Assembly: GCF_900141915.1 (NCBI RefSeq)
Contig: NZ_FQZG01000007.1
Span: forward strand, 1 to 64,000
Source: Tessaracoccus bendigoensis DSM 12906
Lineage (GTDB): Bacteria > Actinomycetota > Actinomycetes > Propionibacteriales > Propionibacteriaceae
Reading direction: 5' to 3'
Length of the DNA stretch: 64,000 nucleotides
Part shown: one piece after another, positions 3,658-40,679 of the stretch
Layout: the number at the start of each line of letters is the position of its first letter
Position numbering within the stretch: position 1 is the first letter of the stretch
Notes under the pieces: model-generated
What the model saw: only the letters and a program-made list of their open reading frames with translations
What the model was told of the DNA's origin: nothing
The model's database searches: none
Made by a program: the position numbers and the translations under genes

Positions 3658-3729
3658 AGTCGCGGGCGATGGCGCGTTTGGGTCGGGGCCCGCGTGCGTC
3701 GTCGGACGTTGTGAGGGACAATCGCCGGG

Positions 3730-3920
3730 CATTGGCCCATACTCGGCACCAGACCACCCAGAATCGACCACTGGCCGATTTTCGGAGACCCCGCCCGGGG
3801 TTCGGGGACCCGCACCCAAACGGCGTCGCAGGGCATTGGCCCATACTCGACACCAGACCACCCAGAATCGACCACTGGCCGATTTTCGGAACCGCGCCCG
3901 GGGTTCGGGGACCCCGCCCG
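3730..3920. repeat. Tandem pair of the dispersed intergenic repeat
   Basis: Two nearly identical 57-bp cores lie at 3730-3786 and 3834-3890, 104 bp apart; I see one mismatch between them. Each is followed by a CCCGGGGTTCGGGGACC segment. The cores share TGGCCxATACTCG and CGACCACTGGCCGATTTTC with the copy at 46-105. The block fills most of the 347-bp gap between the DHFR-like gene and lacI. Confidence 0.85.
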
Positions 3921-14913: not shown

Positions 14914-15715
14914 CTACGCCGACGGCAACTCAGCAGCGGAGGCAATGGCAGCCCGTGCTTCGGTGCGACCAGACGCGCCATCTGCGATCACAGTCACCAG
15001 GGCATCGATGCTCTCGTGGTCGGCGTCAGCAGGGAACATCCACTGGACATCACTTCGTTCTGTGGTGACGCCGATGGTTGGCCGCACTCGCTCTCCGTGA
15101 TTTGTTCTCGGACGCACGTACTTCACCTCATCGAGTGGGTACGTGGTGCCAAGCTCGCCACGACGTGGAAGCGCCTTCGGTGTCGCGGTGACGATTCGAC
15201 GGTCAGTCACCGCGACGAAGGTGCTGGACGTGAGTATCTCGACCATTGCGCCAACCTTTCCGGGGGCGAGCGCGTCCCAGGCCGTATCGACACGCTTGGC
15301 CAGGAGCACTGGCACCACTCCTGTGAGGTTGTGCGCGCCGGTCTCGTACGGGAACGCAATGCTGCGGAGTTCTTCACCGTCCTCCAAGAACCACCGAAGC
15401 ACGTGCAGATAGGGATCAAGATCGAGCCCTTCGGGTGCGCACACTGTGGTCGGCAATGCAGGCATCTCGACTGCTGGCTGGAGCATGACGGCCAGGGCTC
15501 GATGGCATCGAGGAGCTGCCTGCAAGTGAGCTGAGACGCCTTTGCGTCCTTCCGCTTCTTCGTGAGAGGCACGGTAGCGCGACCTGGGAGCTCGGCGATG
15601 ATCCGTAGCTCACGCACGAGTGACTCGGTCAACGAGCGGATTTCGGAGAGTGACTCGTTGATCTCGGCAGGCGTGTTCCGGGCGATCCGGTCGAAGAGCT
15701 GCGGAGCACAACCGA
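14914..15715 (-). pseudogene. Broken hypothetical gene (two-part reading frame)
   Basis: The downstream part (14914 to about 15486) reads as a roughly 190-residue protein with DLDPYLHVLRWFLEDGEEL, LLAKRVDTAWDALAP and STFVAVTDRRIVTATP, a pattern suggesting a PH-like YokE/bacterial SHOCT-type domain. The upstream part, in another frame, reads APQLFDRIARNTPAEI, then SLTESLVRELRIIAELPG. The two would join by a one-base change near 15490. It could instead be an intact shorter gene starting at 15486 or 15525. The function is unknown. Confidence 0.4.
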
Positions 15716-15737
15716 CCCTTCGAGATGCTCCTCGACC

Positions 15738-15838
15738 CCCAGGTCAACGCCAACGCGCTGACCTGGGCCGCAGACGCACACAAGGCCCGAACCTCCACCA
15801 ATGTTTCCATTGGCAAGAGTTCGAGCCTTGTGCGTCTG
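15738..15838. repeat. Two strong stem-loops upstream of an HTH remnant
   Basis: CCCAGGTCA/TGACCTGGG (15738-15746 with 15759-15767) form a perfect 9-bp hairpin. Immediately downstream, 15771-15792 pairs with 15819-15838 with few mismatches, and the loop itself holds CCAATG/CATTGG. No T-run follows. They sit directly before a recombinase-associated HTH fragment, as do hairpins at 28.0 and 35.3 kb. Confidence 0.65.
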
Positions 15839-15985
15839 GTGGACCTGCGTAGAGAGTTTGAGAACCCCTGCCCACCCTTGAAAACCCTGTCTTTGCGTAG
15901 GTCACGCGGCTTCTACAAGCAGGACCGCCGTTCGTCGGGGCCGACGGTGGCGCACTCCCGGGGTCGGATGGTGCGGTCACTTGAG

Positions 15986-16300
15986 ATGCCTCAAACCCTT
16001 CTGCGCCCCGAGCAGGTCGATGACCTGGTGGCGGAGTATCGGGCGGGAGCGACGCTCGTGGAACTGGCATCGCGATTCGGCGTGATCCGCCGAACGGTTG
16101 CCGCGTACTTGACACGCCGGGCGGTCCCAATCCGACGCGGGAGTTTCGACCCTTCCAGCATCCACGAAGCAGCCGACCTCTACCTCAGCAGGTTGACGCT
16201 GGTAGAGGTCGGCGGGCGCTCGCATCGCACGGCATCGTGATCTGGCGCGGCGGGCGCCGTGGTTCTCGCATCACTACATCCGTTGCTGCCGCACGTCCTC
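15986..16300 (+). pseudogene. Frameshifted small HTH protein (recombinase-associated type)
   Basis: From the ATG at 15986 the product reads LLRPEQVDDLVAEYRAGATL then ELASRFGVIRRTVAAYL, a helix-turn-helix of the kind encoded just after large serine recombinases in actinobacterial elements. A second HTH repeat begins (LYLSRLTLVEVG) but is interrupted. The expected continuation (RALASHGIVIWRGGRRGSR) is in another frame after about 16213. The recombinase itself is absent. Similar small HTH units occur at 28268 and 35407. Confidence 0.6.
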
Positions 16301-26949: not shown

Positions 26950-27705
26950 TCAGCCGACCTCGGTGCCGCCGACCTCCCTGCTGTCGAACGGGCTCATGTC
27001 GCCGCGCAGGATCTGCCCGGGCGTCGCCCCGGCGAAGAGTCGGAAGTCGCGAGTCATGTGCGACTGGTCGGTGTAGCCGGCGGCGACGGCGGCCTCTGCG
27101 GCGGGCAGGCCCGATTGCAGGAGGCGGTAGGCCTCGCGGGCGCGGCGCAGCTGCTCGACGTTCTTGCGGCCGAGGCCGACCGTGCCCGCCATCTGCCGGC
27201 GCACCGTGCGCTCCGAGCCGACGAAGCGCCGCTCGCTGAGCGCGCGCTCGACGAGCGGGTCGGCGACGAGAACGCCCTGCGTCGCCAGCTGCTGCACGAG
27301 CCGCTCGAGGCCGTCGAGGCTCGGCGCGGGGTAGCGCGTGCCGGCGAGCACGAACCAGCGCCCGTCGGTCTCGAGCTCGCGCAGCTCGTCGATGGGTTTC
27401 ACGTCCAGGCCGCGCAGAAACGTGTGCGGCGCGAACTCGACGCCCCAGGCCCGCTCGCCCGCCGAGAGCACCAACTCCCGGGGCGCGGTCGACGGCCCGG
27501 CCAGGGTCGCGGTCGGCGTGCCGTCGGCGCGGGTGCCGAAGGCGAGGCCCCAGAACTCGTTCGCCGCGTCGGTGTACGTGGAGTCCTCGTCGATCGTCGC
27601 CCACCACACCATCGTCGCGAGCGGCACCCGGGCGGGGCGGTAGCCGTAGCCTTCGGGGAGCACGCACGCCTCGGCCCCATCGGGCATCTCGGCGACCTGC
27701 GACAT
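26950..27705 (-). CDS. AraC-family transcriptional regulator
   Basis: This 251-residue regulator has an N-terminal sensor region (residues 1-130, beginning YGYRPARVPLATMVWW). The C-terminal AraC double HTH reads SERTVRRQMAGTVGLGRKNV, then AVAAGYTDQSHMTRDFRLFA. It lies directly upstream of and parallel to the epoxide hydrolase gene, which it may activate. Confidence 0.88.
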   Translation of the reverse strand: MSQVAEMPDGAEACVLPEGYGYRPARVPLATMVWWATIDEDSTYTDAANEFWGLAFGTRADGTPTATLAGPSTAPRELVLSAGERAWGVEFAPHTFLRGLDVKPIDELRELETDGRWFVLAGTRYPAPSLDGLERLVQQLATQGVLVADPLVERALSERRFVGSERTVRRQMAGTVGLGRKNVEQLRRAREAYRLLQSGLPAAEAAVAAGYTDQSHMTRDFRLFAGATPGQILRGDMSPFDSREVGGTEVG

Positions 27706-27870
27706 GGCCCCATCCTACGAGCGCCGATCGTCTCGGGGTGCGTCGGTCGCGAACCCCGCCTCGGCGTCGAAGGTTCCATGCTTGAGGCATGGCAGCAAAC
27801 TCTTCGCGCATCGTGGTGCCTATCGACTCCGAGAACGTGAGCGCCGAGCAGATCACGAACCTCCTCGCAA

Positions 27871-28137
27871 GCCCACGCACGCGCCTACGCGCATTCCGAC
27901 GACGGGAGCAGGAGGCTGGCGAACCACGCGTTCTACACGCGGCTGGAAATCGTCGAGGACGAGCAGCTACGCCCGCAGCTCGCAGAACCGGCCGCAACCA
28001 GCAGCAACGAGGCGAACGTAGGCAAGGAAACCAACGGGAACACTCCGCATCCTCTGATTTCGCGTGCTCCCGTAGGACAACTTGGGTGGACGCAATGGAG
28101 CGCTACAGGAACAGGCGACCACGGGTTGAGCGGCTAG
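27871..28137 (+). pseudogene. C-terminal fragment of a large serine recombinase
   Basis: Without a start codon, this frame encodes HARAYAHSDDGSRRLANHAF then TRLEIVEDEQLRPQLAEP, the usual C-terminal end of large serine recombinases in actinobacterial elements. The catalytic domain is absent. The frame then runs through the hairpin repeat at 28019-28090 and stops. A recombinase N-terminal half ending at the same repeat type lies at 34814. Confidence 0.65.
28019..28090 (+). repeat. Recombinase-linked hairpin repeat, copy 1
   Basis: This roughly 72-bp segment has arms CGGGAACAC (28035-28043) and GTGCTCCCG (28064-28072), preceded by AGGCAAGGAA and followed by TTGGGTGGA. Copy 2 at 35239-35309 has the same layout and frame. 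Confidence 0.75.
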
Positions 28138-28267
28138 TTTCCGCGTGGAATCAAGGGGTTTGCGACGATGCCGACTCTATCGGAGAGCCGGACGACCCTC
28201 TGATCGGGGCGTCGGCGGAACCAAATAAACGACCTCGAACACGGCTCACCGACATCGAAGGGACGCT

Positions 28268-28366
28268 ATGCGAACAGCCCGCGCGCAGGGGGTCAGCGTG
28301 AACGCGCTGGCGTGCCGGTTCGGGATTCACAGAGGCACGGTGTGGGCGAAGACGCGCCCAGCGTGA
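28268..28366 (+). pseudogene. HTH remnant following a recombinase fragment
   Basis: This 32-codon open frame reads MRTARAQGVSVNALACRFGI then HRGTVWAKTRPA, one helix-turn-helix of the small HTH proteins that follow serine recombinases here. The sequence before it, in another frame, reads KRPRTRLTDIEG, the usual lead-in of that family. It is a frameshifted remnant. Compare 15986 and 35407. Confidence 0.5.
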
Positions 28367-28373
28367 TCGGTTG

Positions 28374-28976
28374 CTACTCGTGGATCGAGTAGTCGTAGGT
28401 GTCGCGCACCGCCTGGAAGTCGCTCTCGTTCAGGTGGTGACACCAAGGCTGCTGGGTGCCCGGGAAGCGGACGCGATGCGCACCTGACCAGGAGGCGACC
28501 TCGACATGGCACTGCGGCATCGTCCAGAGCACTTCGACGGCGGGCATCAGGTCATTGTCGGAGGAGAACAGGATCGCGGTATCCATATAGCCGGACATCC
28601 CCAGTCGGATCATGTCCACCGCAATTGCGACGTCGATGCCCTTCTCCGAGGCGCGGGAAGCAGGGTAGTCGGAGGGATACTGGAGGTTGCGGCGGATCAC
28701 GGTGACCTGATCGGAGCGTTCCCACATGGCCGTCTGCCGGTCGTTCGCGGCGGCAGCACCGGGCTGACGTTCCGGGTTCGGACGGCCACGGTAGACGCGC
28801 ACTTCCATCAGTTCGCTCTCACGCCGTCGCCGCCCTGCGAGCAGTTCGCCGATCTTGAGCGGGAAGACGTGCCCCTCGCTCGGGTCGGCACCGAACGGGA
28901 GGAACTGGCGGCGCGCCCAGCCGTGGACGTTCTGGTAGTCCATGAAGACCACCACCCGATCCACGGTGTCGCTCAT
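28374..28976 (-). CDS. NYN-domain (PIN-like) putative ribonuclease
   Basis: This 200-residue NYN/LabA-like protein has the acidic catalytic residues VVVFMDYQNVHG near the N-terminus, EKGIDVAIAVDM in the middle and LFSSDNDLMPAVE later. These match the four-Asp PIN-like nuclease site. The start at 28976 follows GGAGG; a longer frame upstream would translate a terminator hairpin and is unlikely. Such proteins cleave RNA or act in defence islands. It is monocistronic. Confidence 0.88.
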   Translation of the reverse strand: MSDTVDRVVVFMDYQNVHGWARRQFLPFGADPSEGHVFPLKIGELLAGRRRRESELMEVRVYRGRPNPERQPGAAAANDRQTAMWERSDQVTVIRRNLQYPSDYPASRASEKGIDVAIAVDMIRLGMSGYMDTAILFSSDNDLMPAVEVLWTMPQCHVEVASWSGAHRVRFPGTQQPWCHHLNESDFQAVRDTYDYSIHE

Positions 28977-28994
28977 CCATCCTCCGCTGGGTAG

Positions 28995-29031
28995 GAAAAA
29001 AATCCCCGCCAATCCCAGGAGGACGGCGGGG
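28995..29031 (-). terminator. Intrinsic terminator/attenuator in the leader of the NYN gene
   Basis: On the minus strand CCCCGCC (29025-29031) pairs with GGCGGGG (29004-29010) and is followed by a run of seven T (29002-28996). It lies only about 20 bp before the NYN start codon. It therefore either ends transcription from the DUF3052 operon upstream or works as an attenuator. Confidence 0.75.
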
Positions 29032-29201
29032 CAGAATAAGACAAGCATACCCCATCAAGACCCGCGAGTGGGATCAGTCAGTCAGTTCTCCCGGGCTGCT
29101 TCTTGTCTGGCAGTCGGTGCGACGCCAATGCCTGGCCCGCCATGGCTCGCGGTCGGTGGCCCGCGCCCGGGCACCGACCCCGCAGGCGGCGGCACCGAGC
29201 G

Positions 29202-29588
29202 TCATGCCGGTGCGCGTTCGCTGTCTTTGAGCAGTCGCACGCGGAGTGCCGAGAGCGTGGTGCTGTATGAGACTTGCGAGACGGCCTTGAAGCCGTGTTC
29301 GGCAAGTTGCACCCACAGGGTGTCACGGTTCATATCGGTCTTGTTGCCTTTCGCGTAGACAATCCAGACCACCCGTGTCTTGGCGAGCGCATCGCCGTGC
29401 TCGGCCAGCACCTCGTCGACCTCTGCTTGATTCGCTGCGAAGATGATCGCGACATCCGCTTCGTCAATGTCCGTGCCCTCGAAACCGGAGACAGCCAGGT
29501 GCTCGGTGGCGGTGCCGACCGGCCAGATCCAGAGCGTGCTGCCCGGTTTGAGTTGCAGCTTGCGCGCGCGAGCGTCGGTGTCAGTCAT
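29202..29588 (-). CDS. DUF3052-like small protein
   Basis: This 128-residue protein reads LQLKPGSTLWIWPVG near its start and VVWIVYAKGNKTDMNRDTLW later, ending with a VSYSTTLSALRVRLL strand, as in the DUF3052 family. It overlaps the upstream SRPBCC gene by 8 bp and is the third gene of an ArsR-SRPBCC-DUF3052 operon. The function is unknown. Confidence 0.8.
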   Translation of the reverse strand: MTDTDARARKLQLKPGSTLWIWPVGTATEHLAVSGFEGTDIDEADVAIIFAANQAEVDEVLAEHGDALAKTRVVWIVYAKGNKTDMNRDTLWVQLAEHGFKAVSQVSYSTTLSALRVRLLKDSERAPA

Positions 29589-30012
29589 TGGTCGTGCTTT
29601 CATAGTCGAGTGTCTGCACAACCGCCCGCAGCAGCGGATGCAGCTTGCGCCAGCCCCCGCGCAAGAACATGCGCGCGAACTCGGCGCCCAGGCCGCGGAA
29701 GCCGTCTTGCAAGAACTCGAACCGGCATGATGTGGGGCTGAGCTCGGTGATCGTGAACGTCACGATCGTATCGATGGGGCCGCCTTTCCACGACCACGCC
29801 ATGCGGTGCGGCGGTTCGAGTTCGAGCACTTCGAGGTGCACGGTGCCGTCGAACAGCGGTGCCGGGTCGGTGGTCATTGTGAACTGGTGCCCCACTTCTG
29901 GGTGGAAGTCATTCGGCATGAGCCACGTTGACAGCAGTTCCGGCTCGGTGAGCGCGCGCCAGAGAGTTGCGGCTGGAATCGCGAACTCTGCGGTTCGGTA
30001 GATGTTGCTCAT
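29581..30012 (-). CDS. SRPBCC (AHSA1-like) domain protein
   Basis: This 143-residue START-like protein has AEFAIPAATLWRALTEPELL, STWLMPNDFHPEVG and the terminal RGGWRKLHPLLRAVVQTL helix typical of AHSA1-type proteins associated with ArsR regulators. They bind hydrophobic ligands, and the ligand here is unknown. Its start overlaps the stop of the ArsR gene (ATGA). Confidence 0.9.
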   Translation of the reverse strand: MSNIYRTAEFAIPAATLWRALTEPELLSTWLMPNDFHPEVGHQFTMTTDPAPLFDGTVHLEVLELEPPHRMAWSWKGGPIDTIVTFTITELSPTSCRFEFLQDGFRGLGAEFARMFLRGGWRKLHPLLRAVVQTLDYESTTND

Positions 30013-30347
30013 GTGTCTTCTTCCTGTTGCAGTGTCTGGATGGTGTAGCCGAGCCGCTCGAAGCGGTCGTCCCAGAACGTTTCGAGCGAGCTGAGCCAAT
30101 CGGTGATGTCGTGCAGCGGTGCCATCTCAAGGCAGTACACGCGCTCGCGGCCGCGTTTGGCGTAGGTCACCAGCCCGACCTTGCGCAGCTGCGCCAGATG
30201 CTCAGAGACGGTGGGTTGAGAGCCCCCGACGGTGAGGACAAGCTCAGAAACAGCGCGGTTGCCGGTAGCCAGTGCGCTCATGATCGCGCGACGACGCGGG
30301 TGCCCAATCGCACTGAACACATCACGGACTGCAGGAGGTCTGGTCAC
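30009..30347 (-). CDS. ArsR-family regulator of the SRPBCC operon
   Basis: This 112-residue winged HTH starts at a GTG at 30347. It reads VFSAIGHPRRRAIMSALATG and SQPTVSEHLAQLRKVGLVTY, without metal-binding cysteines in the recognition region. This non-metal subtype usually controls an adjacent AHSA1 gene, as here. It ends the broken-relaxase region on its left side. Confidence 0.92.
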   Translation of the reverse strand: MTRPPAVRDVFSAIGHPRRRAIMSALATGNRAVSELVLTVGGSQPTVSEHLAQLRKVGLVTYAKRGRERVYCLEMAPLHDITDWLSSLETFWDDRFERLGYTIQTLQQEEDT

Positions 30348-30354
30348 GCATTCA

Positions 30355-33040
30355 TCATATATAGGTAACTACCGATGAATCAATGCGACCGGCGATAGCT
30401 CTACTGCCTGGCTCCTGCTGTACGGTCGCTTCGGTCACGCGAGGGTCGGCGTCGATGCGTGGCCGGGTGACGCGCTCGACCCAGGCCGCATTGTCCTCGT
30501 TCCAGCGGGGCGGCTCGCCCCATGCGCTCGTCAGTCGCTGCTCGGCGTCGTGGGCAAGGGTCTGCGCGGTCCGGTGCGCTTTGGTGGCGCGGCGCTTGCC
30601 GAACCTGCCGACCGTGCGCAGCCGGTCGCGGGCGGCTCGTTGTGCGGTGTCGGCGGCCTGCCACTCGGCCAACGCCGCCGATGCCTGCTCGGTGAGCGGG
30701 GCGGCAACCTCGCCGCGCACGCGCTCGAGCTGCTGGGTCGCGGCATCGCTCGCGCCTGCTGCGTGGTCGCGCTCATAGCGCTGCGGCTCGCGGAGTTCGG
30801 CGAGTGTATCGGCTGCTTGCTCCCAGAGTGCTGCCCGCCGTTCGGCGTGTTCGGCCTGCGCGGTGAGGGCTGCTATCTCGGTGTTGACGATCTTCACGGG
30901 GCCGTCGTCGACCAGACCCCAAACCGCTTCCGCCGCTTGCTGGGTGGCGTGGGTGCGTCCTCGGTCGGCGCGGTCGCGCTCTACCGCGTCGATGAACTGT
31001 TGCCGGGCGTCGGCGGTGTTCTCAGCGATGATGTGCAACTGGTCTTCTTGCTTGCCCCGGGTCATACCGACGTAGACGGCGGCTCCGCTCATCGCGTCGC
31101 TGAGGATGGTGTGCGATCCCGGCGCGGTGACGCCCTGCACCCCGTAGGCGGTCGAGGCGTAGGCGAGATGGGTGTGCTCGGTGACGTAGGCGGCAGGCAG
31201 GCTGACCGTGTGCTCTCGCTTTCGCCCGCTGCCTGCCTCGACCGCCCACAGCGCCCCGTGGTCGGTGACGTGTTGGACGATCCAGAGTTGCCGGTTCGCC
31301 AACCCGAGGCTGGTGTCGTTCTTCCGGGTCTGGATCAGGTCCACCCACTCACCGGGTGCGAGCTGCGAGGCTTTCGGCACTCCGGTGTAGGTGCGCCCGG
31401 TCTCGGGGTCGGTGTCGCCGGGTGTGAGGCGTGTCCATACGCCGTCACGGTTCCAGCGCCAACCGTGCGCATGCACAAGCGCCGCGACGGACGCGGTGGG
31501 GGTGCCGAGTTCGTGTTGCGCAACATCAGCGGCTTTCTTCGTCGGCGTCACCACCCGCGACAACTTGCCCCGCTCACTACTTGCGGTGATTGCGGTGGCG
31601 AGCATCGTCGTCTTCCCCGCTACCCGCTGCTCCCTCTACGATCACGAGCGGGTCGGTGGAAGCGAGGGCTGCGGCGGCCTCGGCCTGGCCTGCGTCGAGG
31701 CCGGCGGACTGCGCCAGCTCCTGCACGTCCGGCACCGCCGGCTCATCGTCGGGCACTCGGGCGGTGATGAGGTCGCGGAGATCGGTTTCGGCTTGCATGA
31801 CGCGCACGCTCGTCCAATGCGCCACATACTCGGGTCGGGGTGCATCGGGTGGGAGGATCGTGAAGCAGTCCTCCAACGCCAGACGCGACACGACCGTGAT
31901 GAAGTCGCGTATCTCCGCAGGGGTCGCTCGCACACCGTACTCGGTCATGATCCGGGTCGCGTGCTCGGTCACGGTGTGCGCCGTCCACGCCGATGCAGCG
32001 GCGGCGCAACGATCCAGCGTGCGCGACGCAACCACCTGCACGCTCAGATCATCAAGCGACACCAACGCAATAGGCGTTGGCCGTTGCAAGGTGTCGGGGT
32101 CGTATCCGGCCGCGCGTAGCTCGGTCACCCATGCGGCCTCATCGCCCAGCGTGGTGGGCTTCTTCGCGGGCCGCTCGTACGCCCACGCCTCAGCTCGCAG
32201 GCGCGAGGCGACGACCGGCCCGATACTCTCGCCGGGGTGAGCTTCGTGCCATTTCGCTTCGAGGCGGTCGAGGTTGCGGCGCACCTGCACACCCCGCTTG
32301 CTCATCAAGGCGTTGAACGGCTGTAACTCGACCACTTCGCCGGTTGCCGGGTCGAGGGTCAGGCCGTGCCGATCCAGCACCTCGGCAAGCTCGGGGCTGG
32401 CGGCGATCACGGCAGTACCGAGGGCGCGGATCGCGTCCTGCTGCCGGAACAACGCCCCACCGTTCAACCCGCCACTTGCCCGCCGCCCACACCCTCATCC
32501 CGATCTGCATATGGATATGCCGGTGTGGATCGCCTGCCCGCGACGTGCGGTGCGTGATCCCGACGACGTACATCTGCTCGATGGGTACGACCTCCTGCGC
32601 CCCCAGCGACCCCACGCGAGTCACCGAGCGGAGAGCGAGCCAGCGCCGAATCTCCGAGAGCGCGTCCTGCTGGGCCGCATGCAGCGCCGCCGACACCTCG
32701 GGGTGCAGGGCGGCGGCGATCGACAACGACTTGGGGCGTTGATGACCATTGCCATGAACCGGGGCGAGGCCTGCCGATCCGACCCGGCCCGACGAGGCTT
32801 GCCCATCTGCTCCCCGGTGAGCGGATGCGTCCAGTCCACCCACCCCGCATACAACTCGGGTTCAAGACCCACCTCAGCAGCCACCACGCCCGACCCGTCA
32901 AGCTGAGCGAACTGCGCGACGGTCGCTTCCGCGCCCAAGTAGTAGTCGTCAGCGCGGGCACGGTCGGCCTCGACATAGCGCAGCGCATCAGCCCCGGTAC
33001 CCCGGAACGGGAGGACACCGCCCTGCATCACAACCACCAC
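30355..33040 (-). pseudogene. MobF (TrwC/TraA-like) relaxase-helicase broken by three frameshifts
   Basis: Read from 33040 leftwards, the frames join into one roughly 890-residue protein. It has a TrwC relaxase start (MVVVMQGGVLPFRGTGADAL), the metal-binding region GDPHRHIHMQIGMRVWAAGK, a Walker A motif split across two frames (VIVEGAAGSG then KTTMLATA) and the helicase end HLAYASTAYGVQGVTAPGS with VYVGMTRGK. Frame changes fall near 32735, 32468 and 31605, all within runs of G or C. Either the gene is dead or the assembly has homopolymer errors. It is clearly diverged from the intact relaxase at 42552. Confidence 0.85.
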
Positions 33041-33215
33041 CCTGCGCCTGCCTCACTGGCCATCTAGCGTATCAGCAACTACGGCACTTAAATTGCGTCC
33101 ATTCTCTGTGAGGGAGGCGAGAACCTGGGAGGTTATGAGGCAGTCGGGCGACGGAAGGGTGCGCGTGGAAGGCGACGGCGGGCGGCGAAGACGGGGTGTT
33201 GGTGGCGTCAGAGTT

Positions 33216-33689
33216 CTATGAGCAGGCAGCCAGGTGTACCGTTCGGTGCGGTTGGAACCCGTGCCGGTTGTAGAGTCGCACGGCAGGGTTGCCTTCCTCG
33301 ACCGAGAGACTGATCGCCGGAACGCCACGGGATCGGGCTACCTCAGTCACCTGGTGCAGGAGCAGCCCGCCGACGCCTTGGCCCCGGTGCTCGGCATCGA
33401 CCCAGATGCTCAGCTCCGGGATGGTCGCAGCGACGAACCCGTAGCCGGGGTCGTCTGCGGTGAAGTAGCGGAGCCAGACCGCTGCGACAGCCATGCTGTC
33501 GGCGCTCTCGGCGACGAGGCCGAAATCCTGGTCGCTCGGCCAGTTGTCGTAATAGTGGCGAAACTGCCGGGTTTGCTCGACCTCGCGCATCGTGAAGCAC
33601 GGGCCGTTCCAGTTCAGGTTGTCGAGCATCGCTCGCGCGAGCAAGTCGCGGTCTGCCGCCGTCGCGATCCTCACGGAAACATCAGTCAT
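33216..33689 (-). CDS. GNAT-family N-acetyltransferase
   Basis: This 157-residue protein has the acetyl-CoA motif A (LSIWVDAEHRGQGVGGLLLH) and motif B (ISLSVEEGNPAVRLYNRHGF). It follows the hypothetical gene at 33709 by 19 bp on the same strand. The acceptor, a small molecule or a protein N-terminus, cannot be told. Confidence 0.9.
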   Translation of the reverse strand: MTDVSVRIATAADRDLLARAMLDNLNWNGPCFTMREVEQTRQFRHYYDNWPSDQDFGLVAESADSMAVAAVWLRYFTADDPGYGFVAATIPELSIWVDAEHRGQGVGGLLLHQVTEVARSRGVPAISLSVEEGNPAVRLYNRHGFQPHRTVHLAACS

Positions 33690-33708
33690 GCCACACGTTT
33701 TCGTCGGG

Positions 33709-34404
33709 CTATCCAGCGCGGCCTCGGCGTCCGGGCGGGAGGAGCCCTTTGCGGCGGGCGCGGGCGACCCAGCCCTGCGCGGTCGAGAGCGGCACCCGGC
33801 TGATCTCCGCCATTTTCGCCGTCGGGTTCACCTCCCCGTCATCCACGAGGCGGGTGTGCTGCAAAGCGACGACCTCGTAGAAGTCCGGGGTTCGTTTCGG
33901 GTTCCCGAGCGGTTTCATCACGTCCTCGGCGCGCATGATGCGGCCAGAGGGCATGGTGAGCGTGCCGCCCTCGAAGCGGGTGGCTCCGGTGACGGTGAAC
34001 TGGCGGCGGTTGATCGCCGCCTCGATCCTCGACGTGGGAAGGTTTCGGAGCATGGGGCTTGCCACCGGGTCACCGGCCTGTTCGGGCAGGTAGATGATCC
34101 CCGTGATCCGTACCTCACCCATCGGCTCCTGGTGCATGAGGTACTGCCGTTGCAACCGGAGCAGCACGCGCGTGTAGGACTGGACGTGCTGGATGAGGAA
34201 CCAGCGACCATCGCGGCCATCGTTGTACCCGGCCAGTTCCCCGTCCGGCCCTGGCGTCGGATATCTCCGCTTGTCGTACTTCAGCGCGGCATCAATGGCG
34301 ACCGACTCGGCGGAAGATGCGACCACGGGAGGATCGGGCATGACCCAGCCCGGTGGCAGGTCTTCAGCAACCAGCAGCGGAACGTCCTCCACGTCTTGAC
34401 TCAT
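33709..34404 (-). CDS. Hypothetical protein with C-terminal winged-HTH-like end
   Basis: This 231-residue protein starts at the ATG at 34404, preceded by GGAGG. The central part (RRYPTPGPDGELAGYNDGRD, VLLRLQRQYLMHQEP) is unfamiliar. The last 45 residues (EVNPTAKMAEISRVPLSTAQ, then VARARRKGLLPPG) look like a small DNA-binding HTH as seen in actinobacterial prophage and ICE proteins. It is divergent from the recombinase-linked gene pair at 34476. Confidence 0.6.
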   Translation of the reverse strand: MSQDVEDVPLLVAEDLPPGWVMPDPPVVASSAESVAIDAALKYDKRRYPTPGPDGELAGYNDGRDGRWFLIQHVQSYTRVLLRLQRQYLMHQEPMGEVRITGIIYLPEQAGDPVASPMLRNLPTSRIEAAINRRQFTVTGATRFEGGTLTMPSGRIMRAEDVMKPLGNPKRTPDFYEVVALQHTRLVDDGEVNPTAKMAEISRVPLSTAQGWVARARRKGLLPPGRRGRAG

Positions 34405-34475
34405 GCCTCCAGGGTAGTGGAACCTGTGATTCATCTCAAACAATGGCCGTTACGCCAAGAGCGTGCTACCTTGAT

Positions 34476-34817
34476 ATGGCGTATCTGCTATCGCATGAGA
34501 TTGAGGTGAGTGTCCTGACCCCATCCCCGACCCGTCAGCGCCGACCACGCGCGGCGCAAGACCGGGATACGCTCAGGGCAGGGAGTGATCCAGTGCTCCG
34601 GCTCCGCACGATCCGCCGTGCGGAGCCGGACGTAGGGAAGCTGGTGGAGTGGGTGCTGAACATCACCCAGACCCGCTACGACGCCTACCGCGACGGCCAG
34701 CCCGACCCGTATGGCCTCCCGTCCCCTGAGAATCTGAGCCTGACGTCAGACCGGCGAGGCAGAGTAGAAGACGAACAAGAACGCAAACTGCTGCACCAAC
34801 GAAGGAGCACCGCATGA
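34476..34817 (+). CDS. Small protein coupled to a serine recombinase gene
   Basis: This 113-residue ORF, starting MAYLLSHEIEV, overlaps the recombinase start by ATGA (34814-34817). The second half (RRAEPDVGKLVEWVLNITQT, YDAYRDGQPDPYGLP) seems more protein-like than the first, so the true start may be further in. Its coupling suggests a recombinase accessory or control protein. No family is recognised. Confidence 0.5.
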   Translation: MAYLLSHEIEVSVLTPSPTRQRRPRAAQDRDTLRAGSDPVLRLRTIRRAEPDVGKLVEWVLNITQTRYDAYRDGQPDPYGLPSPENLSLTSDRRGRVEDEQERKLLHQRRSTA

Positions 34818-35314
34818 GCACCACGACCGCTCCCACCCTCGCTGCGACCGATGAGCGCACGGAGAACAAGCCAGTGCTGCTGGCCGTCTCCTACCTCCGC
34901 GTCTCCACCCGCGAGCAGGCCGAACGCGGTGGCACCGAGGAAGGCTTCTCCATCCCTGCCCAGCGGGAGGCGAACCACCGCAAGGCCGATGAGTTGAGCG
35001 CGCGGATCGTGCGGGAGTTCGTGGACGCGGGCGAGTCCGCACGCTCCGCCGACCGCGACGGGCTACAGGACATGCTCGCGTTCATCGCCGCAACCCGGGT
35101 GCAGTTCTGTATCGTGCATAAGCTCGACCGGCTCGCCCGCAACCGCGCCGACGACGTCGCCATCCACCAAGCACTCCTCAGCGCCGGGGTCACCCTCGTC
35201 TCAGCTACCGAGTCGATTGATCAGACTCCTTCGGGGAAGGCAAGGAAGCGAAACGGGAACACACCACATCTTTCGATGTCGCGTGTTCCCGTAAGACACT
35301 TTGGGTGGAGTTAG
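34814..35314 (+). pseudogene. N-terminal catalytic part of a large serine recombinase, truncated
   Basis: The 166 codons include the catalytic Ser in VSYLRVSTREQ (about residue 31), FSIPAQREA, the IVHKLDRLARNR helix and TESIDQTPSGKA, which ends the resolvase domain. At that point the frame enters the hairpin repeat and stops after FGWS. The recombinase and zinc-ribbon/coiled-coil regions are absent, so site-specific integration activity is not expected from this copy. Confidence 0.85.
35239..35309 (+). repeat. Recombinase-linked hairpin repeat, copy 2
   Basis: CGGGAACAC (35254-35262) pairs perfectly with GTGTTCCCG (35283-35291), and the loop has an inner ACATC/GATGT stem. It is flanked by AGGCAAGGAA and TTTGGGTGGA as in copy 1. 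In both copies it replaces the end of recombinase coding sequence. Confidence 0.78.
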
Positions 35315-35406
35315 CCCGACAGTGTTCTAACCTCGCCCCCGCGCTTCTCCACGCTTCGTCTGTCCACAAGAGTATCCGTCGACGGTTGCTGCCCGCCAGT
35401 GGTGAC

Positions 35407-35751
35407 ATGGCTGGCCAGCGGGAGCGGTTGCCCCGTCCGGTTCCGCGTCTGACGGAGTTGATGCTGGATGAGGCGCAGCGCAGGTATGAGGACGGAGAGG
35501 TCCTTCGGGTGATCGCATCCGACCTTGGCGTGGGCCGTACCCGTCTATCGGCGCGTCTCCGCGAGCGCGGCGTGTCGCTTCGTCGGGCATCCCCGACTGA
35601 TGAGCAGGTGCTTGAGATGTGCCACCGCTACGAGCAGGGCCAGTCGCTCGCCAGGGTGGGGGCGAGTCTCGGTCTCAACGCGAGCACGGTACGCATCACC
35701 CTTCTTCGTGCTGGCGTCACGCTTCGAGACGCACATGGTCGCGAGCGTTGA
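35407..35751 (+). CDS. Small double-HTH protein downstream of recombinase
   Basis: This 114-residue protein has two HTH repeats: LRVIASDLGVGRTRLSARLR with ERGVSLRR, and LARVGASLGLNASTVRITLL with RAGVTLRD. It lies 92 bp after the truncated recombinase and is the only intact member of the three such genes in the window. It could be the excision/recognition helper or a regulator of the recombinase element, but that is inference. Confidence 0.7.
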   Translation: MAGQRERLPRPVPRLTELMLDEAQRRYEDGEVLRVIASDLGVGRTRLSARLRERGVSLRRASPTDEQVLEMCHRYEQGQSLARVGASLGLNASTVRITLLRAGVTLRDAHGRER

Positions 35752-35823
35752 CTTTCGGCAGTTGAGAGGCGCAGATGGGTCGCTGGGATGTCAGTGCATC
35801 CTGGGTACATGCCGCACGGTCGG

Positions 35824-36597
35824 CTAAGTGATAGCGCCGAGAATCGCTGCCACTCGGGAGGGTAGTAGGTCGTTGGTTCCCGTGGAGGTGACGAGATCGG
35901 CGAGGTTACGCCAAGCCTGTATTCGGACCTCTGTAGTGCTGATTCCGCGCGCCTTCGCAAGACTGGCTTCGACATCAGCGACATTGCCGGGTTGCTGTGG
36001 ACGAGCGCCGCGGCGATTGCCGTCTGGGTGGTCCGTCTCCAGGAGGAGGCGATCGATGGGTATGAGATCAATTGCATCGCTTTGCCGCAGGGTGGCGATG
36101 TTGAGGGAGAAATAGGCTCCGAGTTCGAGTGCGCGGCTTGTGGTGGCGCGGTCGCCGAGCCACCAGTGCAAGATCGCGCCAGTCACCGGGGTTCGCTCAA
36201 GGTGGTCCACGATCTCGCGGGTCGCGCCGTAACTATGGATCGAGATAAGGCGCGGCTTCTTCTGTAGCTGAGAAAGCAGAGATGCGAGTACCTCGTGTTG
36301 CTTGGCGCGGCGAGACGGAGCCCTGGCGTCGAGACCGACTTCACTGACGTATGCGGTTTGGTCGAGTAGCTGATTGAACTCCTCCGGAGCGTAACCGTCG
36401 AGCGCAACCTTGACTCCTGGGTGGACGCCGACACCCCAGATCGTGAGGAGATCGTGCTGCTGGCGGTGGAGCGCGAGCCGTGACTCTGCAAGGGTGCGGC
36501 TCGCTGCGAAGACCACAGCTCGCAGGTTCAGGAGGTCCTGAGGAGTGACCGTCGTGTCGATGTGGGCATGGAGGTCCAGGGGTGGCCAGTTGGTCAC
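35824..36597 (-). CDS. qatD: QatD: TatD-like metal-dependent nuclease of a Qat defence system
   Basis: This 257-residue TatD-family hydrolase has metal-binding LDLHAHID, GVGVHPG, SEVGLDA, ISIHSYGA and LLETDHPDG. I chose the GTG at 36597, whose GTGA overlaps the qatC stop, over a GTG 36 bp upstream. TatD-like QatD is one of four proteins required in the published Qat anti-phage system, and the order A-B-C-D is preserved here. It is the last gene of the operon. Confidence 0.88.
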   Translation of the reverse strand: MTNWPPLDLHAHIDTTVTPQDLLNLRAVVFAASRTLAESRLALHRQQHDLLTIWGVGVHPGVKVALDGYAPEEFNQLLDQTAYVSEVGLDARAPSRRAKQHEVLASLLSQLQKKPRLISIHSYGATREIVDHLERTPVTGAILHWWLGDRATTSRALELGAYFSLNIATLRQSDAIDLIPIDRLLLETDHPDGNRRGARPQQPGNVADVEASLAKARGISTTEVRIQAWRNLADLVTSTGTNDLLPSRVAAILGAIT

Positions 36598-37880
36598 GTC
36601 AGCGTCTCCAGTTCGTGGGCACCGCGGATGCACAGATCGCGCGCATCTCCTGCGGAGTATCCGTGAGGTGGGCGCATCGCCGCGATGTCACTGACCCTGA
36701 CTCCTCGGGCAACGAATCCCCTGATGCTGGGAAGGACCGACGCCTTCTCAAGCTGCGTTTTCGCGGAGTCGTTCGGCGGTGCATCGATGACGTAGTTGCT
36801 CCGATCCGCCAGGTGTGAGGCGGCGAATGATGCTCGGCGCACAAGACAGCCAAAGCATGTTCCACAGTGATCTGTCGCTGATACCCCGAGCCATCTTCTG
36901 TTCGTGAAGGCACAGGAGTTAGTGGCGCTGAGCAACTCCGACGCGGATTCGTCGCCGATCTCGTCCGCCAGCCACCGGAACATCTCGCCCTTCGTATGGG
37001 TGGCGAAGGGATTCGACAGCGTGCCCCAACCACCTGCCAAACCGACGAGGCGAGACAGTTCTGCGAGGAACCAGGGGTGCGTCGTACGTGTGGAGAGGCT
37101 GCCAAGTTGATCGGGGCCGAGTGGCGGGTTTAGTGACGCGAACCCGTTCTCTGGAATCCAGAGCTCGACCTCGTTGACCGAGGCAAACGCGAGGCCGAGG
37201 GCGAGAAAAAGGAACGACCGTGTGCGCGTCGAGTTCTCGTTCCGGAAGCGGTGACCACCGGGCTGCTCCTTGCGTCGAGTAAACACGACCTGTTCGTGAT
37301 GCTGTATAGCCTCGTCCGGATAGAGCTCTCGGATACGTCCGGCGATGTCCCTCTGGATTGGGGAGATTGATGTCGCCCCGACGTGAGAGACAAGGAGATG
37401 CTGTTCCGGTCGAGTACGGGCAAGAAGCGCACCTGCGGCAGAGTCTGCCCCGCCACTCATGAGCACGACCCGCTGCACATCGGGATAGGAGTTGGGCGTG
37501 ACGTCCTCACGAGGGACCCGCGAGGTGCGGAACCTGAGCCCCCAACTGTCGCCCGACAAGAATCCCAAGAGGTCTTGCAGTTCTGTCACGATGGCGTTCC
37601 AGGGCTCTGGGTCGTGGACAGGCACGATCAAGGAGATGTCACGCCGGGTCCAGTTGACTTTGCCGACGCGCCGAGGAACAGAACGATCTGCTGCGTAGAC
37701 CATCGCGGCGAGACGGAACAGTTCCACATTCTCCCGCCGCACGGGGCCAAGCTTGCCCAGCCGCGGACCCAACGAAGTGTTAAAGGTTCCGGCGCCACCG
37801 GCAGGCCAGTAGAAGTTATTTCCGGCAGCTTTGCGGGTGACAGCCGAGGGGACCTGGAAACGAAGATCGAACTGTTCCAT
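36594..37880 (-). CDS. qatC: QatC: QueC-like ATP-pyrophosphatase-fold protein
   Basis: This 428-residue protein has the PP-loop VVLMSGGADSAAGAL (about residue 140) of QueC-type enzymes and a zinc-type DHCGTCFGCLVRR cluster near residue 337. In queuosine synthesis QueC makes a nitrile from a carboxylate. In Qat systems it is thought to modify a protein partner; that target is not visible here. It starts 1 bp after qatB ends and overlaps qatD by GTGA. Confidence 0.9.
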   Translation of the reverse strand: MEQFDLRFQVPSAVTRKAAGNNFYWPAGGAGTFNTSLGPRLGKLGPVRRENVELFRLAAMVYAADRSVPRRVGKVNWTRRDISLIVPVHDPEPWNAIVTELQDLLGFLSGDSWGLRFRTSRVPREDVTPNSYPDVQRVVLMSGGADSAAGALLARTRPEQHLLVSHVGATSISPIQRDIAGRIRELYPDEAIQHHEQVVFTRRKEQPGGHRFRNENSTRTRSFLFLALGLAFASVNEVELWIPENGFASLNPPLGPDQLGSLSTRTTHPWFLAELSRLVGLAGGWGTLSNPFATHTKGEMFRWLADEIGDESASELLSATNSCAFTNRRWLGVSATDHCGTCFGCLVRRASFAASHLADRSNYVIDAPPNDSAKTQLEKASVLPSIRGFVARGVRVSDIAAMRPPHGYSAGDARDLCIRGAHELETLT

Positions 37881-37881
37881 C

Positions 37882-38664
37882 TCAGTCCGCCTCGTGGATG
37901 GTTCTGAGGTACTCCAGACCGTCCTCGATCGCTCGCGTGAACTCGTCAGGGCTAGGCCCGCTCGGGGAGAGGTTCGCGTGCGCGGCGAGTTCTTCTGCGG
38001 CCTGGCGAACCCCGTCCTCGAACGCTGCTCGCTGGGCGCCTGTCATGTCCTTGGTGTTCAGGGTTGATGCGGTCTCCACGAGGTAAGCCTCAGCGAGGAT
38101 CAGTGCGACTGCTTCTTCGGCGATCTGGCCGAGTGTCACGTCTGTCCCGGTGGTCTCGCTCTCAGCAAGCCATTCAGCGAGTCTGCCGACGACTTCCATC
38201 TGCTCGGCAGTCTCGATCGTGCCAGGAGGGAGGTCTTCGCAGACCTTCTGAGCGATCTGGTGAGCGACATCGAAGACGTTGGGGTTCGCTCGCAGCGCGT
38301 CGTAGTCCAGACCGAGGTTACGGAGGGTCTGTGCGTCGCCGGTCCGGTAGGCGTACGCCGCTGCGGCCCCTCGTCCTGCGGAGCGTGCCGATCCAGACAC
38401 TGATCGTGTGAGTGTGTCAGTGCTCCGACGGCCCCGGCTGCTTCCTCCGCCGCTCCGAGAGGATCGGAAGAGAGCGGCAGTGGGGAGAATCCTTCCTGCG
38501 GGTGAGTTTGGGGATGGCTTCAGCGGTGACAGGAGCGTCGGCTGGCTGCCGACGGGAGCCGGAGCTGTGCTGTCACCGCCAGGGAGACTGGCGAGCCAAT
38601 CGTCCAGTCCGTCGCGTACTTCGCCCCCGGCGGCGCTGCCGGAATAGGAGCCTTTTGTGCCCAT
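37882..38664 (-). CDS. qatB: QatB protein
   Basis: This 260-residue protein starts MGTKGSYSGSAAGGEVRDGL, the small-residue-rich N-terminus typical of QatB, followed by Ser/Arg-rich low-complexity sequence and a helical C-terminal half. QatB has no known enzymatic domain; in the family it is thought to be the substrate or adaptor for QatC. The start overlaps the qatA stop by one base (TGATG). Confidence 0.82.
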   Translation of the reverse strand: MGTKGSYSGSAAGGEVRDGLDDWLASLPGGDSTAPAPVGSQPTLLSPLKPSPNSPAGRILPTAALFRSSRSGGGSSRGRRSTDTLTRSVSGSARSAGRGAAAAYAYRTGDAQTLRNLGLDYDALRANPNVFDVAHQIAQKVCEDLPPGTIETAEQMEVVGRLAEWLAESETTGTDVTLGQIAEEAVALILAEAYLVETASTLNTKDMTGAQRAAFEDGVRQAAEELAAHANLSPSGPSPDEFTRAIEDGLEYLRTIHEAD

Positions 38665-40679
38665 CAGTGCTGCCCTCCCTTGGGTGGCGGCGTCGTGAGT
38701 GCCATCTTGATCTTGCCGTCCGCCAGCTGCGCAGCCAGGGCATTGATGACGTCCTGCATGCCCGGGATATCGACACCCGCGAGGATGATCGCAGTGCCGG
38801 GCTGGAGATCGGAAGCCGGGAGCCGGCGGAACACGTCGAGAGCGGTCGGTTGCACGGCGGGATGCACCGTCGCAAGCCTGACGATTCCCGCCACAGCGCC
38901 GCGCTGCTCTTGGACGCGGTCTCGCGCACGAAGACCTAGATGCCGCAGGAGCTGATCGACATCGTCCGTTGTGAGGGCTTGGAGGCTCTCATCCGTGAGT
39001 TGTCGCCTGTCCACCGTACGAGTTGAGGCGAGTTGCGCGGCGAGGTCGCGAAGATGCTGGGGCAATTCTGCACTGAGGAGGAGATCACCACGGAAGGACG
39101 CTGCGAGGTGCAGGTAGGGACTCAAATCCAGATCGTGGAGCTCCGGTGGAAGCTTGGCCCATCGGATCATGTCGTCCGCGAAATGTGGGACAACGCTGAT
39201 CGCAGGAGCCACTGCGGCGACCGGCGGCATTGCGTCGCTCGAAGGCTCGCTGTCAACAGGGTCTGAGGGTCCAGCGACGGTCGATTCGTCCGCCGGAGTG
39301 GCAGGCTCGATCATCGTCTCGGTTCCAGGGGCGACCTCTGGAGCACCTTCGGCGGGGGCCAGTTCTTCCTTGGGCCGGTTTGCCTGATTCTCCAGTGCGT
39401 CAAGACGATCTCGAAGCTCGCCCGTCCGGAGCCAGGAAAGCACCGACTGGAACTGGTCAGGCAGAAGTACCTCAAGCACCATGAGCTTCGCGACCACATC
39501 GAAGTCGAGTTCGATTCCGCGGCGTGCCGCGATGGAACGACGGATGTTCAGATCGTTGAGGAAGCGCTTGATACGACGCGGGTTCCCGCGAAGCTTCTCG
39601 TAGAGGATGGTCATCAGTCGGCGCGCAAACGAAAGTTCGCGCTGCACGTCGAGACCGTCCGGTGCCTTGAGGTCATCGAGCGCGCCGGTCGTGCGGAGCC
39701 GCTGGCACTCGGCGATCACCGCCTTGAGCTGGGGGTCGGTGAGGCGCTTTTCTACACGGTTCTGGAGCTGTAGCAGAAGCACATAAGACTCGGTGTCAAA
39801 GGCGCCTAGCGCGGGGAGCGGAACGGTCGTTTGGACGATCTTGTGCAGATATAGCTTCGACGGTGGCTCGGCCGGGAGCGCATCTTCGTCATCGGGACGC
39901 TCGGCGGGCATACTCCACTCTGGTAAGCGAGTGCGGATGGCGTCCGCGACTCTGTCCTCGTCCGCTGCAATGACGAACGCCATGCCGTCCACGCTGAGAA
40001 AGAGACGGATCGCTTCCAAGGTCTCCACGACCGTATCGACCAAGCATCTGTCTAGGTCATCGACCAGTACCGCCACGCGCCGAACGTGGGCCATTTCATC
40101 GGTTGCCAGGAGTTCGGCGAACTCAGCCTTGAACCCCGCGAGGCCGCGCGGTTCGTCCTTGGCGTCGGTGCCCTCGGGTGCCGATTCTCGGATGAGATTA
40201 AGGACATCATCGACTCCGGGAAGCTGCAATGTGAGCGATGACTTGGCGGCGAGTTTGACCGCCTTTGCCCAGTCGACGCGATCTGACAGCTTCTTTATGA
40301 GCTTCTTGATCTTCTGGCCCTTGGACTCCTCGACGTTCTTGAGACGCTCGGTGAGTTCCGCCGAGATGGCGTCAAGTACTTCTCCGATGAGACTCTCTTT
40401 CGCTCCGACGGCGGGGTCGTATCGCCAAGGATCGGTGCGGACGGTGAGAATCTTGGCTGCCTCAGGGTCGCTCCGCGAGTCGAGGTCAGCCTTGATGAGT
40501 TCGAGAACGGTTGTCTTGCCGCTGCCCCAAGGGCCAGAGAGCCCGATTGCGAGAGGGTCGAGCGCATCATCGAGTACAGCGTCTGAGACCGTCTCTGCAA
40601 TGGCACGTGCGGCGAGGAAGTCGACCTTTGACGGCTCGTCGGACCAGAGGCGACCGCGGAGTTCCTCGGCTGCGCTCAT
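38664..40679 (-). CDS. qatA: QatA: KAP-family P-loop ATPase
   Basis: This 671-residue KAP NTPase has Walker A GLSGPWGSGKTT (about residues 47-58), followed by VRTDPWRYDP, the Walker B VAVLVDDLDRCL, and FVIAADEDRVADAI, as in KAP proteins. The C-terminal part is helical with a Pro/Ala/Glu-rich stretch. It is the first gene of the four-gene Qat operon and presumably the phage-sensing or energising component. Confidence 0.9.
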   Translation of the reverse strand: MSAAEELRGRLWSDEPSKVDFLAARAIAETVSDAVLDDALDPLAIGLSGPWGSGKTTVLELIKADLDSRSDPEAAKILTVRTDPWRYDPAVGAKESLIGEVLDAISAELTERLKNVEESKGQKIKKLIKKLSDRVDWAKAVKLAAKSSLTLQLPGVDDVLNLIRESAPEGTDAKDEPRGLAGFKAEFAELLATDEMAHVRRVAVLVDDLDRCLVDTVVETLEAIRLFLSVDGMAFVIAADEDRVADAIRTRLPEWSMPAERPDDEDALPAEPPSKLYLHKIVQTTVPLPALGAFDTESYVLLLQLQNRVEKRLTDPQLKAVIAECQRLRTTGALDDLKAPDGLDVQRELSFARRLMTILYEKLRGNPRRIKRFLNDLNIRRSIAARRGIELDFDVVAKLMVLEVLLPDQFQSVLSWLRTGELRDRLDALENQANRPKEELAPAEGAPEVAPGTETMIEPATPADESTVAGPSDPVDSEPSSDAMPPVAAVAPAISVVPHFADDMIRWAKLPPELHDLDLSPYLHLAASFRGDLLLSAELPQHLRDLAAQLASTRTVDRRQLTDESLQALTTDDVDQLLRHLGLRARDRVQEQRGAVAGIVRLATVHPAVQPTALDVFRRLPASDLQPGTAIILAGVDIPGMQDVINALAAQLADGKIKMALTTPPPKGGQH

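Follow-up and report, generated by a model that had tools for sequence, protein, structure and literature searches.

A family of serine recombinase elements stacked at a tRNA gene of Tessaracoccus bendigoensis, with a predicted attachment site inside the recombinase gene

Introduction

The 64,000 bases analyzed here, referred to as the window, are bases 1-64000 of contig C97 (95,078 bases) in the 4.13 Mb genome of Tessaracoccus bendigoensis DSM 12906. In this stretch, two pieces of serine recombinase genes lead into copies of the same short repeat, and each copy is followed by a helix-turn-helix (HTH) gene or its remnant, which raises the question of what the repeat marks. A preliminary description of this DNA had proposed a recombination or transposon end. 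The comparison with an intact recombinase, which had been suggested there, places the junctions and bears out this view. The C-terminal piece (27856-28035, amino acids 467-525, 69%) and the N-terminal piece (34814-35239, amino acids 1-139, 86%) are present, and both lead into one shared repeat with an identity of 82% over about 71 bp. At 35239, the N-terminal piece reaches the repeat via an internal deletion and out of frame. Each repeat is followed by an HTH sequence, namely a remnant at 28086-28357 with a frameshift near 28260 and an intact open reading frame (ORF) at 35407-35748; extended to 35305-35748, this ORF showed a Pfam Sigma70_r4 match (5e-6).

The repeats at 28019 and 35239 are well supported as the right ends of integrative elements carried by large serine recombinases. 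Missing from the preliminary description were the tRNA target, the tandem array and the reading frame open across the junction. Altogether, we consider it highly probable from sequence comparison that the repeat belongs to a family of elements located at the 3' ends of tRNA genes. The HTH sequence forms the other end of the element, and the attachment site (attP) would lie inside the recombinase gene. Furthermore, the attachment (att) arms would mimic the tRNA T-loop, the hairpin would replace the tRNA terminator, and the recombinase would exchange its tail upon integration.

The tandem array at tRNA-Ala(CGC)

It is well supported by the arrangement of the ends that contig positions 15839-81344 form a tandem array of integrative elements stacked at tRNA-Ala(CGC), which is located at contig position 81345. 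GTGG cores at C97 15839, 28086, 35305, 76449 and 81345 delimit four stretches designated E4 (12.2 kb), E3 (7.2 kb), E2 (41.1 kb) and E1 (4.9 kb). Another element, E5, belongs to a second subfamily and has its end to the left of 15839. Both ends of E1 and of E3 belong to family 1. Since the right arm of E2 (C97 76449) and its left arm (35305), 41 kb apart, have GTTCNAACCNNGCCCC in common, E2 was assigned as one element.

The E1 recombinase (C97:79719) is intact, and its frame crosses the repeat and enters tRNA-Ala(CGC) on the opposite strand. The recombinase of E3 has lost its middle part and is out of frame, and of the E4 recombinase the last part alone is left. Due to this decay, both elements would depend on another recombinase copy. 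Full-length, more distant recombinases are present elsewhere in the same genome.

The recombinase family at tRNA genes

A search for the repeat in 60 genomes including our own revealed 13 copies in 5 genomes, and every copy adjoins either the 3' end of a tRNA, a fragment of such an end or an HTH left end. Eight stand beside a complete tRNA gene (Ala, Met, Val), two beside a tRNA-end fragment (C144, C138) and the remaining three beside an HTH gene or remnant (window 28086, window 35305, C129). Neither random sites nor ordinary coding sequence, the outcomes that would have spoken against an element end, were observed: the 40 bp beside the core showed a mean conservation of 0.92 compared to 0.73 in the preceding 40 bp. 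This sample comprised 57 candidates, three of which (L083, L087, L088) gave no right end, leaving 54.

A single scan of the contig collection with the intact recombinase yielded 45 loci. All of them except L046 and L088 lie in records whose names we take to be those of Actinobacteria. The two exceptions are family elements in records of metagenome-assembled genomes named Caldisericales and Spirochaetia, which may reflect misbinning or wide transfer. A recombinase with 49% identity (C97:74889) was compared with 196 genomes of the order; matches at E 1e-60 were obtained in 41 of them, including our own, and added 29 new loci.

In 66 of the 74 loci, the 400 bp downstream of the recombinase contain a tRNA gene in opposite orientation (Ala 47, His 7, Val 6, Met 4, Lys 2). 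Among the other eight, L057, L064, L086 and L088 lie at a contig edge, with the contig end at most 120 bases from the match, L087 is truncated and L074 is a tandem junction; L058 and L173 complete the list. For L058, no tRNA was found in the 400 bp downstream that were searched. In all 66 tRNA-adjacent loci the recombinase frame contains no stop before the end of the tRNA gene; the stop lies inside or beyond this gene, read antisense. In nine of them (L178-L183, L082, L089, L188) it follows within 11 bases of the tRNA end. Since L065 and L186 look like one record, the left end of L071 recurs in G030 and L081 corresponds to the locus of G030, the counts refer to loci and not to events.

The intact E1 recombinase comprises, in this order, the domains Resolvase (PF00239, 3e-30), Recombinase (PF07508, 2e-11) and zinc ribbon (PF13408, 6e-10), which is the domain order of large serine recombinases. 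Only serine recombinase domains were found, and none of the tyrosine family to which SSV-type integrases belong. The catalytic domain matches the TP901-1 structure (PDB 3bvp, E 7e-10), and the curated SCC Ccr model was not reached (CcrB 110 bits vs a cut-off of 900). No plasmid-borne copies were found at E 1e-60 in the plasmid collection. On contig C129 of the same genome (L090, 1688-2847), a recombinase copy is rearranged: residues 152-295 lie on the opposite strand beside residues 305-544, i.e. an inversion within the gene. On C98 of this genome (L092, 1421-7487), two further, convergent recombinases have their 3' ends against tRNA-His and tRNA-Arg(tct).

The HTH sequence as left end

That the HTH pieces are the left ends of neighboring elements is well supported by the comparison of their flanks. 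The HTH reading frame starts exactly at the GTGG core, and 13 starts could be aligned at GTGG as one left-end family. At nine of these 13 left ends the outside DNA differs, and the other four (L073, L126/L081, C97:76449, window 28086) directly follow another recombinase element at its right end.

The boundary could be followed to the native DNA for G015, where an element at tRNA-Ala(TGC) ends with an HTH sequence at 3091197, 22.65 kb from the tRNA. In relatives that lack the element, the DNA just outside this end is found as the native 3' flank of tRNA-Ala(TGC): among 31 loci compared, the match starts at base 1 or 2 in seven (72-87% over 146-427 bp) and at base 10 in another two. Since the outer DNA is native tRNA flank, the left boundary is fixed for this one element. 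The displaced flank includes the terminator-like hairpin of the tRNA. Of the two marks of an element at a tRNA 3' end, an integrase gene against the tRNA was found in 66 of 74 loci and a displaced native flank at the far end in one element.

The reading frame across the junction

When the two ends were joined at the core, a recombinase-HTH fusion in frame resulted for all twelve elements with both ends located (ten elsewhere, E1 and E2), with a tail of 91-148 residues. The tandem joint at C97:76449 is a natural example and comprises one uninterrupted frame of 656 codons. The frame also reads through at three further joints, those of C129, window 15839 and L074, the last of which includes undetermined bases. 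All 17 left ends listed share one phase.

In the left ORF, the pairwise changes at the three codon positions amounted to 111/206/389 for codons 1-20, 362/399/818 for codons 21-50 and 252/327/978 for codons 51-89 (12 left ends, the frameshifted end at 28086, W28, being excluded). The last 12 codons on the recombinase side showed 1300/1125/1153 and therefore no codon-position bias. These counts comprise 47 rows after omission of W28, W35, L082, L089, L019, L017, L011 and of rows with a stop or of insufficient length. Based on the missing bias and on the higher conservation of the core-side 40 bp, the hairpin was rejected as ordinary coding sequence.

Since the outside DNA varies between insertions, the HTH sequence would have no fixed ribosome site once inserted. 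Together with the selection visible from the first HTH codons on, production of HTH would therefore be easiest to understand within the fusion.

The att arms and the T-loop word

The predicted attP comprises arms of the pattern TACGGGAACA[C/G]GCGAC inverted around the GTGG core, i.e. the two inverted arms of a large serine recombinase site. The two consensus arms have an exact run of 10 bases in common, which was reached in 149 of 200000 shuffles.

In the right arms, the word GTTC occurs at one fixed place in 61 of 66 loci and with one mismatch in the other five, also in subfamilies whose arms are otherwise different; in shuffled arms, GTTC at a fixed place was obtained in 0.6%. Counted from the GT of the core, this place is -21 to -18, and by our own count the T-loop word of the tRNA stands at the mirror position. 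The distances were taken from the T-loop GTTC of each tRNA itself, so that the result describes a constant spacing between the two words. The left arms carry GAAC at +23 to +26 in 15 of 17 left ends and with one mismatch in two, which is 5 bp further out than the word of the right arm. A shift of 5 bp between attP and attB half-sites has been described for the zinc-ribbon motif in a structural study of serine integrases (PMC3783163).

We infer from this spacing that the arms mimic the tRNA T-loop. The length of T-arm and acceptor stem is fixed, and for this reason related enzymes could use many tRNAs.

Organization of the window and cargo genes

The features of the window that belong to the array are as follows.

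15662-15838, forward strand: right end of E5, a C-terminal remnant of the second serine recombinase subfamily in frame into the next element; 87% over 157 bp (L140, G019) and over 139 bp (L146, G032) to DNA directly 3' of tRNA-Ala(CGC), GTTC at -21 to -18
15839-16240, forward strand: left end of E4 with core GTGG, att arm and HTH remnant; 61% to the HTH of C129, GAAC at +23 to +26
27856-28085, forward strand: right end of E4, decayed recombinase C-terminus (amino acids 467-525) followed by an att arm with the word GCTC, not GTTC
28019-28090, forward strand: repeat copy 1, a right att arm whose inverted repeat is degenerate; 82% to copy 2, no RNA hairpin fold
28086-28089, forward strand: core GTGG at the E4/E3 junction; both ends are of family 1, which makes it the nearest to attP within the window
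28086-28357, forward strand: left end of E3 with att arm and an HTH gene frameshifted near 28260; its two frames match the left-end protein of L049 at 76% and 87%
28377-29048, reverse strand: NYN-domain protein, cargo of E3 (Pfam NYN 1.3e-10)
30355-33040, reverse strand: relaxase-like gene of E3, broken into three pieces, two of which match NCBIfam MobF (1.4e-5) and TraA_Ti (2.8e-8) below the curated cut-offs; the third (32624-33040) is unmatched
34814-35239, forward strand: E3 recombinase, N-terminal amino acids 1-139 only, middle lost and out of frame with the end
35235-35304, forward strand: repeat copy 2, right end of E3 with hairpin and an att arm of intact consensus; 100% to L056 of Acidipropionibacterium jensenii over 75 bp, fold z -4.2
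35305-35308, forward strand: core GTGG at the E3/E2 junction
35305-35748, forward strand: left end of E2, att arm like the E2 right arm (contig 76449) and HTH ORF of 148 amino acids in frame
35824-40679, reverse strand: Qat anti-phage genes directly inside the left end of E2, comprising QatD, QatC, an unmatched ORF in the place of QatB, and QatA

In E2, PADLOC identified QatD (2e-33), QatC (2e-75) and QatA (2e-80); the third ORF, in the place of QatB, gave no PADLOC match. Both L049 and G030 encode a restriction enzyme of the BsuBI/PstI type together with a methylase, for L049 in agreement with PADLOC. Ten ORFs were scanned (five of L049, three of G030, two of E3) and showed restriction-modification, TetR, DUF5343 or NYN domains or nothing. 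No tyrosine integrase was found among the eight scanned ORFs of L049 and G030, which are a part of their ORFs. Outside the array, the window contains a 92-bp direct repeat in three copies (38-129, 3722-3813 and 3826-3917; 62% and 86% to the reference copy).

The hairpin and a role as terminator

In the preliminary description both copies of the repeat had been taken for hairpins. This holds for the 35239 copy, which folds strongly (z -4.2), but not for the 28019 copy (z -0.14). A third HTH remnant had been placed behind strong stem-loops before 15986. The remnant exists (15839-16240), but it follows the end of a different recombinase subfamily instead of the same hairpin, and with a folding z of +0.6 the DNA before it is not unusual.

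We regard it as rather unlikely that the hairpin is foremost an RNA element, i.e. a terminator for the tRNA and perhaps for the recombinase, to which the place in the att arm would be secondary. In the main family, the core-side arm of the hairpin is nearly invariant and thus far more conserved than the other arm. All 14 pairs are kept in 25 of 46 main-family right ends, and changes on both sides that still pair occur in two of the 14 pairs, in one sequence each, with many cells broken. Covariation was accordingly rejected as proof of an RNA hairpin, and Rfam gave no match at gathering scores in the window from 27500 to 36000. Against single-base shuffles, a z below -2 was obtained in 26 of 38 main-family loci and in 25 of 28 other loci (the main-family loci L186 and L187 being counted among the latter), so that 12 main-family loci lie above this value, and the 28019 copy has no fold.

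Nonetheless, the structure recurs in subfamilies of different sequence, and a T-rich tract follows towards the tRNA, which is also the case in other tRNA flanks. Over the next ten bases beyond the hairpin, 4.1 T in the main family and 4.3 T in the others were counted on average when read in the direction of the tRNA, compared to 2.2 and 2.8 in the direction of the recombinase. After the best stem in 56 other tRNA flanks, which were not cleared of other islands, 3.9 T were counted. Furthermore, the native terminator-like hairpin in G015 is displaced to the far end. Altogether, we assume a double role, in which the hairpin would serve as att arm and as replacement for the tRNA terminator displaced by the insertion.

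Proposed mechanism and alternative explanations

The element runs from the GTGG core beside the HTH sequence to a copy of this core directly at the tRNA. Upon excision as a circle, the recombinase would be joined to HTH in one protein with attP within its gene. Integration would cut off the HTH part and substitute residues read from the antisense strand of the tRNA gene, the arms would make many tRNAs usable as targets by mimicking the T-loop, and the hairpin would take the place of the displaced terminator. Most likely, the tail swap yields two forms, one with HTH for integration and one without it for the resident state, and would thereby act as a built-in control of enzyme timing. In this scheme the circle and the fused protein are predicted, as is the role assigned to the tail swap.

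More speculatively, and with considerable reservation, the family might possess its own directionality switch by gene splitting. The recombinase-HTH protein of the circle would integrate at any tRNA with a standard T-loop, and insertion, by exchanging HTH for antisense-tRNA residues, would lock the element in until a tandem neighbor or a new arrival supplies an HTH end. If true, tandem joints such as C97:76449 would re-create an active fusion from two elements, letting arrays trade tails.

Several observations weigh against the proposed mechanism. At L178-L183 (tRNA-His) the stop is created by the junction itself (six loci), the end is read in a different frame in L082, L089, L171 and L188, and L173, located beside a tRNA-Ala end fragment without a complete tRNA, has a stop before the end. 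Moreover, the loci are related, and their counts are not independent events. Among the tandem right arms, GTTC is present in five of seven, with GCTC in E4 and GGTT in C129. The two ends of E4 are of different types, and E4 may be a merger of decayed elements. The exact crossover dinucleotide within GTGG is not fixed by these data, and the empty site was demonstrated for one element only (G015). A free circle was not seen in the viral contigs, where the one exact match to the attP pattern (L195), without recombinase, HTH or tRNA, is due to chance. In 396 sampled genomes of the phylum, our own window alone matched the pattern, with 2 mismatches. A structure model of the HTH tail reached a pLDDT of 53 and was not used because of this low confidence. 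Finally, the GTG of the core could start HTH alone.

This last point leads to an explanation that we take seriously, even if we incline against it, in which the open frame is passive. The att site would lie at the 3' edge of the recombinase gene, HTH would be a separate small DNA-binding protein (repressor or directionality factor) whose translation begins at the core GTG or relies on coupling, and no role would be left for the tail. Every left end shown could start at the core GTG, and in some an ATG is also present at codon 4. The tails read from tRNA vary in length and sequence, and the recombinase therefore seems to tolerate different tails. The third-codon bias of the left ORF from codon 1 despite varying upstream DNA, and the identical phase of the left ends, are difficult to reconcile with a passive frame and favor the fusion.

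That HTH genes are a second insertion target besides tRNA genes is very improbable. The hairpin-HTH junctions without tRNA at window 28086, window 35305, C129 and L074 could be read in this way, but the same HTH lies inside the distal end of tRNA-sited elements, the native tRNA flank stands just outside in G015, and the HTH-side arm of E2 resembles the right arm of the same element 41 kb away. HTH genes as targets were rejected on the basis of the distal position and the G015 flank. Hardly more credible is an origin of the boundaries from tyrosine-integrase islands at the same tRNA genes. Direct repeats of tRNA-Ala of 26-27 bp do exist beyond the element in G030 and on C144 and C138 of our own genome, but the first such repeat in G030 is 11 kb beyond position 210802, where the family element ends, and the serine recombinase itself stands against the tRNA in 66 loci. 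It is more likely that these repeats belong to other islands stacked at the same tRNA. At L126/L127 (G030 contig C15), copies of the tRNA-Ala 3' end were noted at 222239-222265 and 237503-237528, with the same DNA before both.

Comparison with known systems and significance

Serine recombinases at tRNA genes have been described as rare, the examples being the actinomycete integrative and conjugative elements (AICEs) of Mycobacterium at tRNA-Leu and phage phiRSM1 at tRNA-Ser (PMC3218068, 2011). Like the present family, these comprise a serine recombinase inserting at a tRNA gene. In contrast, each uses one tRNA gene, and the parts of that source available to us describe neither an integrase reading into the tRNA nor a C-terminal part at the far end. 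The large serine integrases of the TP901-1 and A118 type resemble the family in the catalytic domain, which matches that of TP901-1, and in the Pfam domains Resolvase, Recombinase and zinc ribbon; the present family differs from them in the tRNA targets and in its own gene spanning the predicted attP.

The nearest precedents for an attP inside the integrase gene are tyrosine integrases, those of Mx8 and SSV, which extend across attP (PMC4383910, 2014). IntP of phage Mx8 gains a new 3' end upon integration (PMC6070905), as proposed here, but it belongs to the tyrosine family (in the usage of PMC4383910) and to a single phage, and no separate HTH domain is described in the portions consulted. 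The archaeal 'suicidal' integrases of the SSV type also have the site inside the integrase gene, are split on insertion, use many tRNA targets and have the att site translated in frame (PMC8371274). They differ in being tyrosine enzymes of archaea whose catalytic part is separated by the split, whereas in the present family the catalytic, recombinase and zinc-ribbon domains stay together. In the literature searched, which covers subscription papers only thinly and therefore does not prove absence, no description of a serine integrase with attP inside its own gene was found.

The fusion of a serine integrase to its recombination directionality factor (RDF) favors the attL x attR reaction (PMC5737554). 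There, a fused partner protein changes the direction of the integrase, and the same may apply here; those fusions are laboratory-made, whereas the one predicted here is natural, made and broken by insertion, with HTH as a putative RDF.

According to the Islander work (PMC4383910), serine integrases were not known to target tRNA genes, although rare cases had already been described (PMC3218068), and according to a 2021 review (PMC8371274), recombinases disrupting their own gene are exclusively archaeal. A family spread across the Actinobacteria would bend both statements. Mimicry of the T-loop would be a simple rule by which one enzyme family uses many tRNA genes, which bears on the finding of islands and on integration tools. 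The elements examined carry defense genes, namely Qat and BsuBI/PstI-type restriction-modification. Furthermore, with the predicted natural fusion it would be possible to test directly how the direction of a serine integrase is set by its C-terminal domain.

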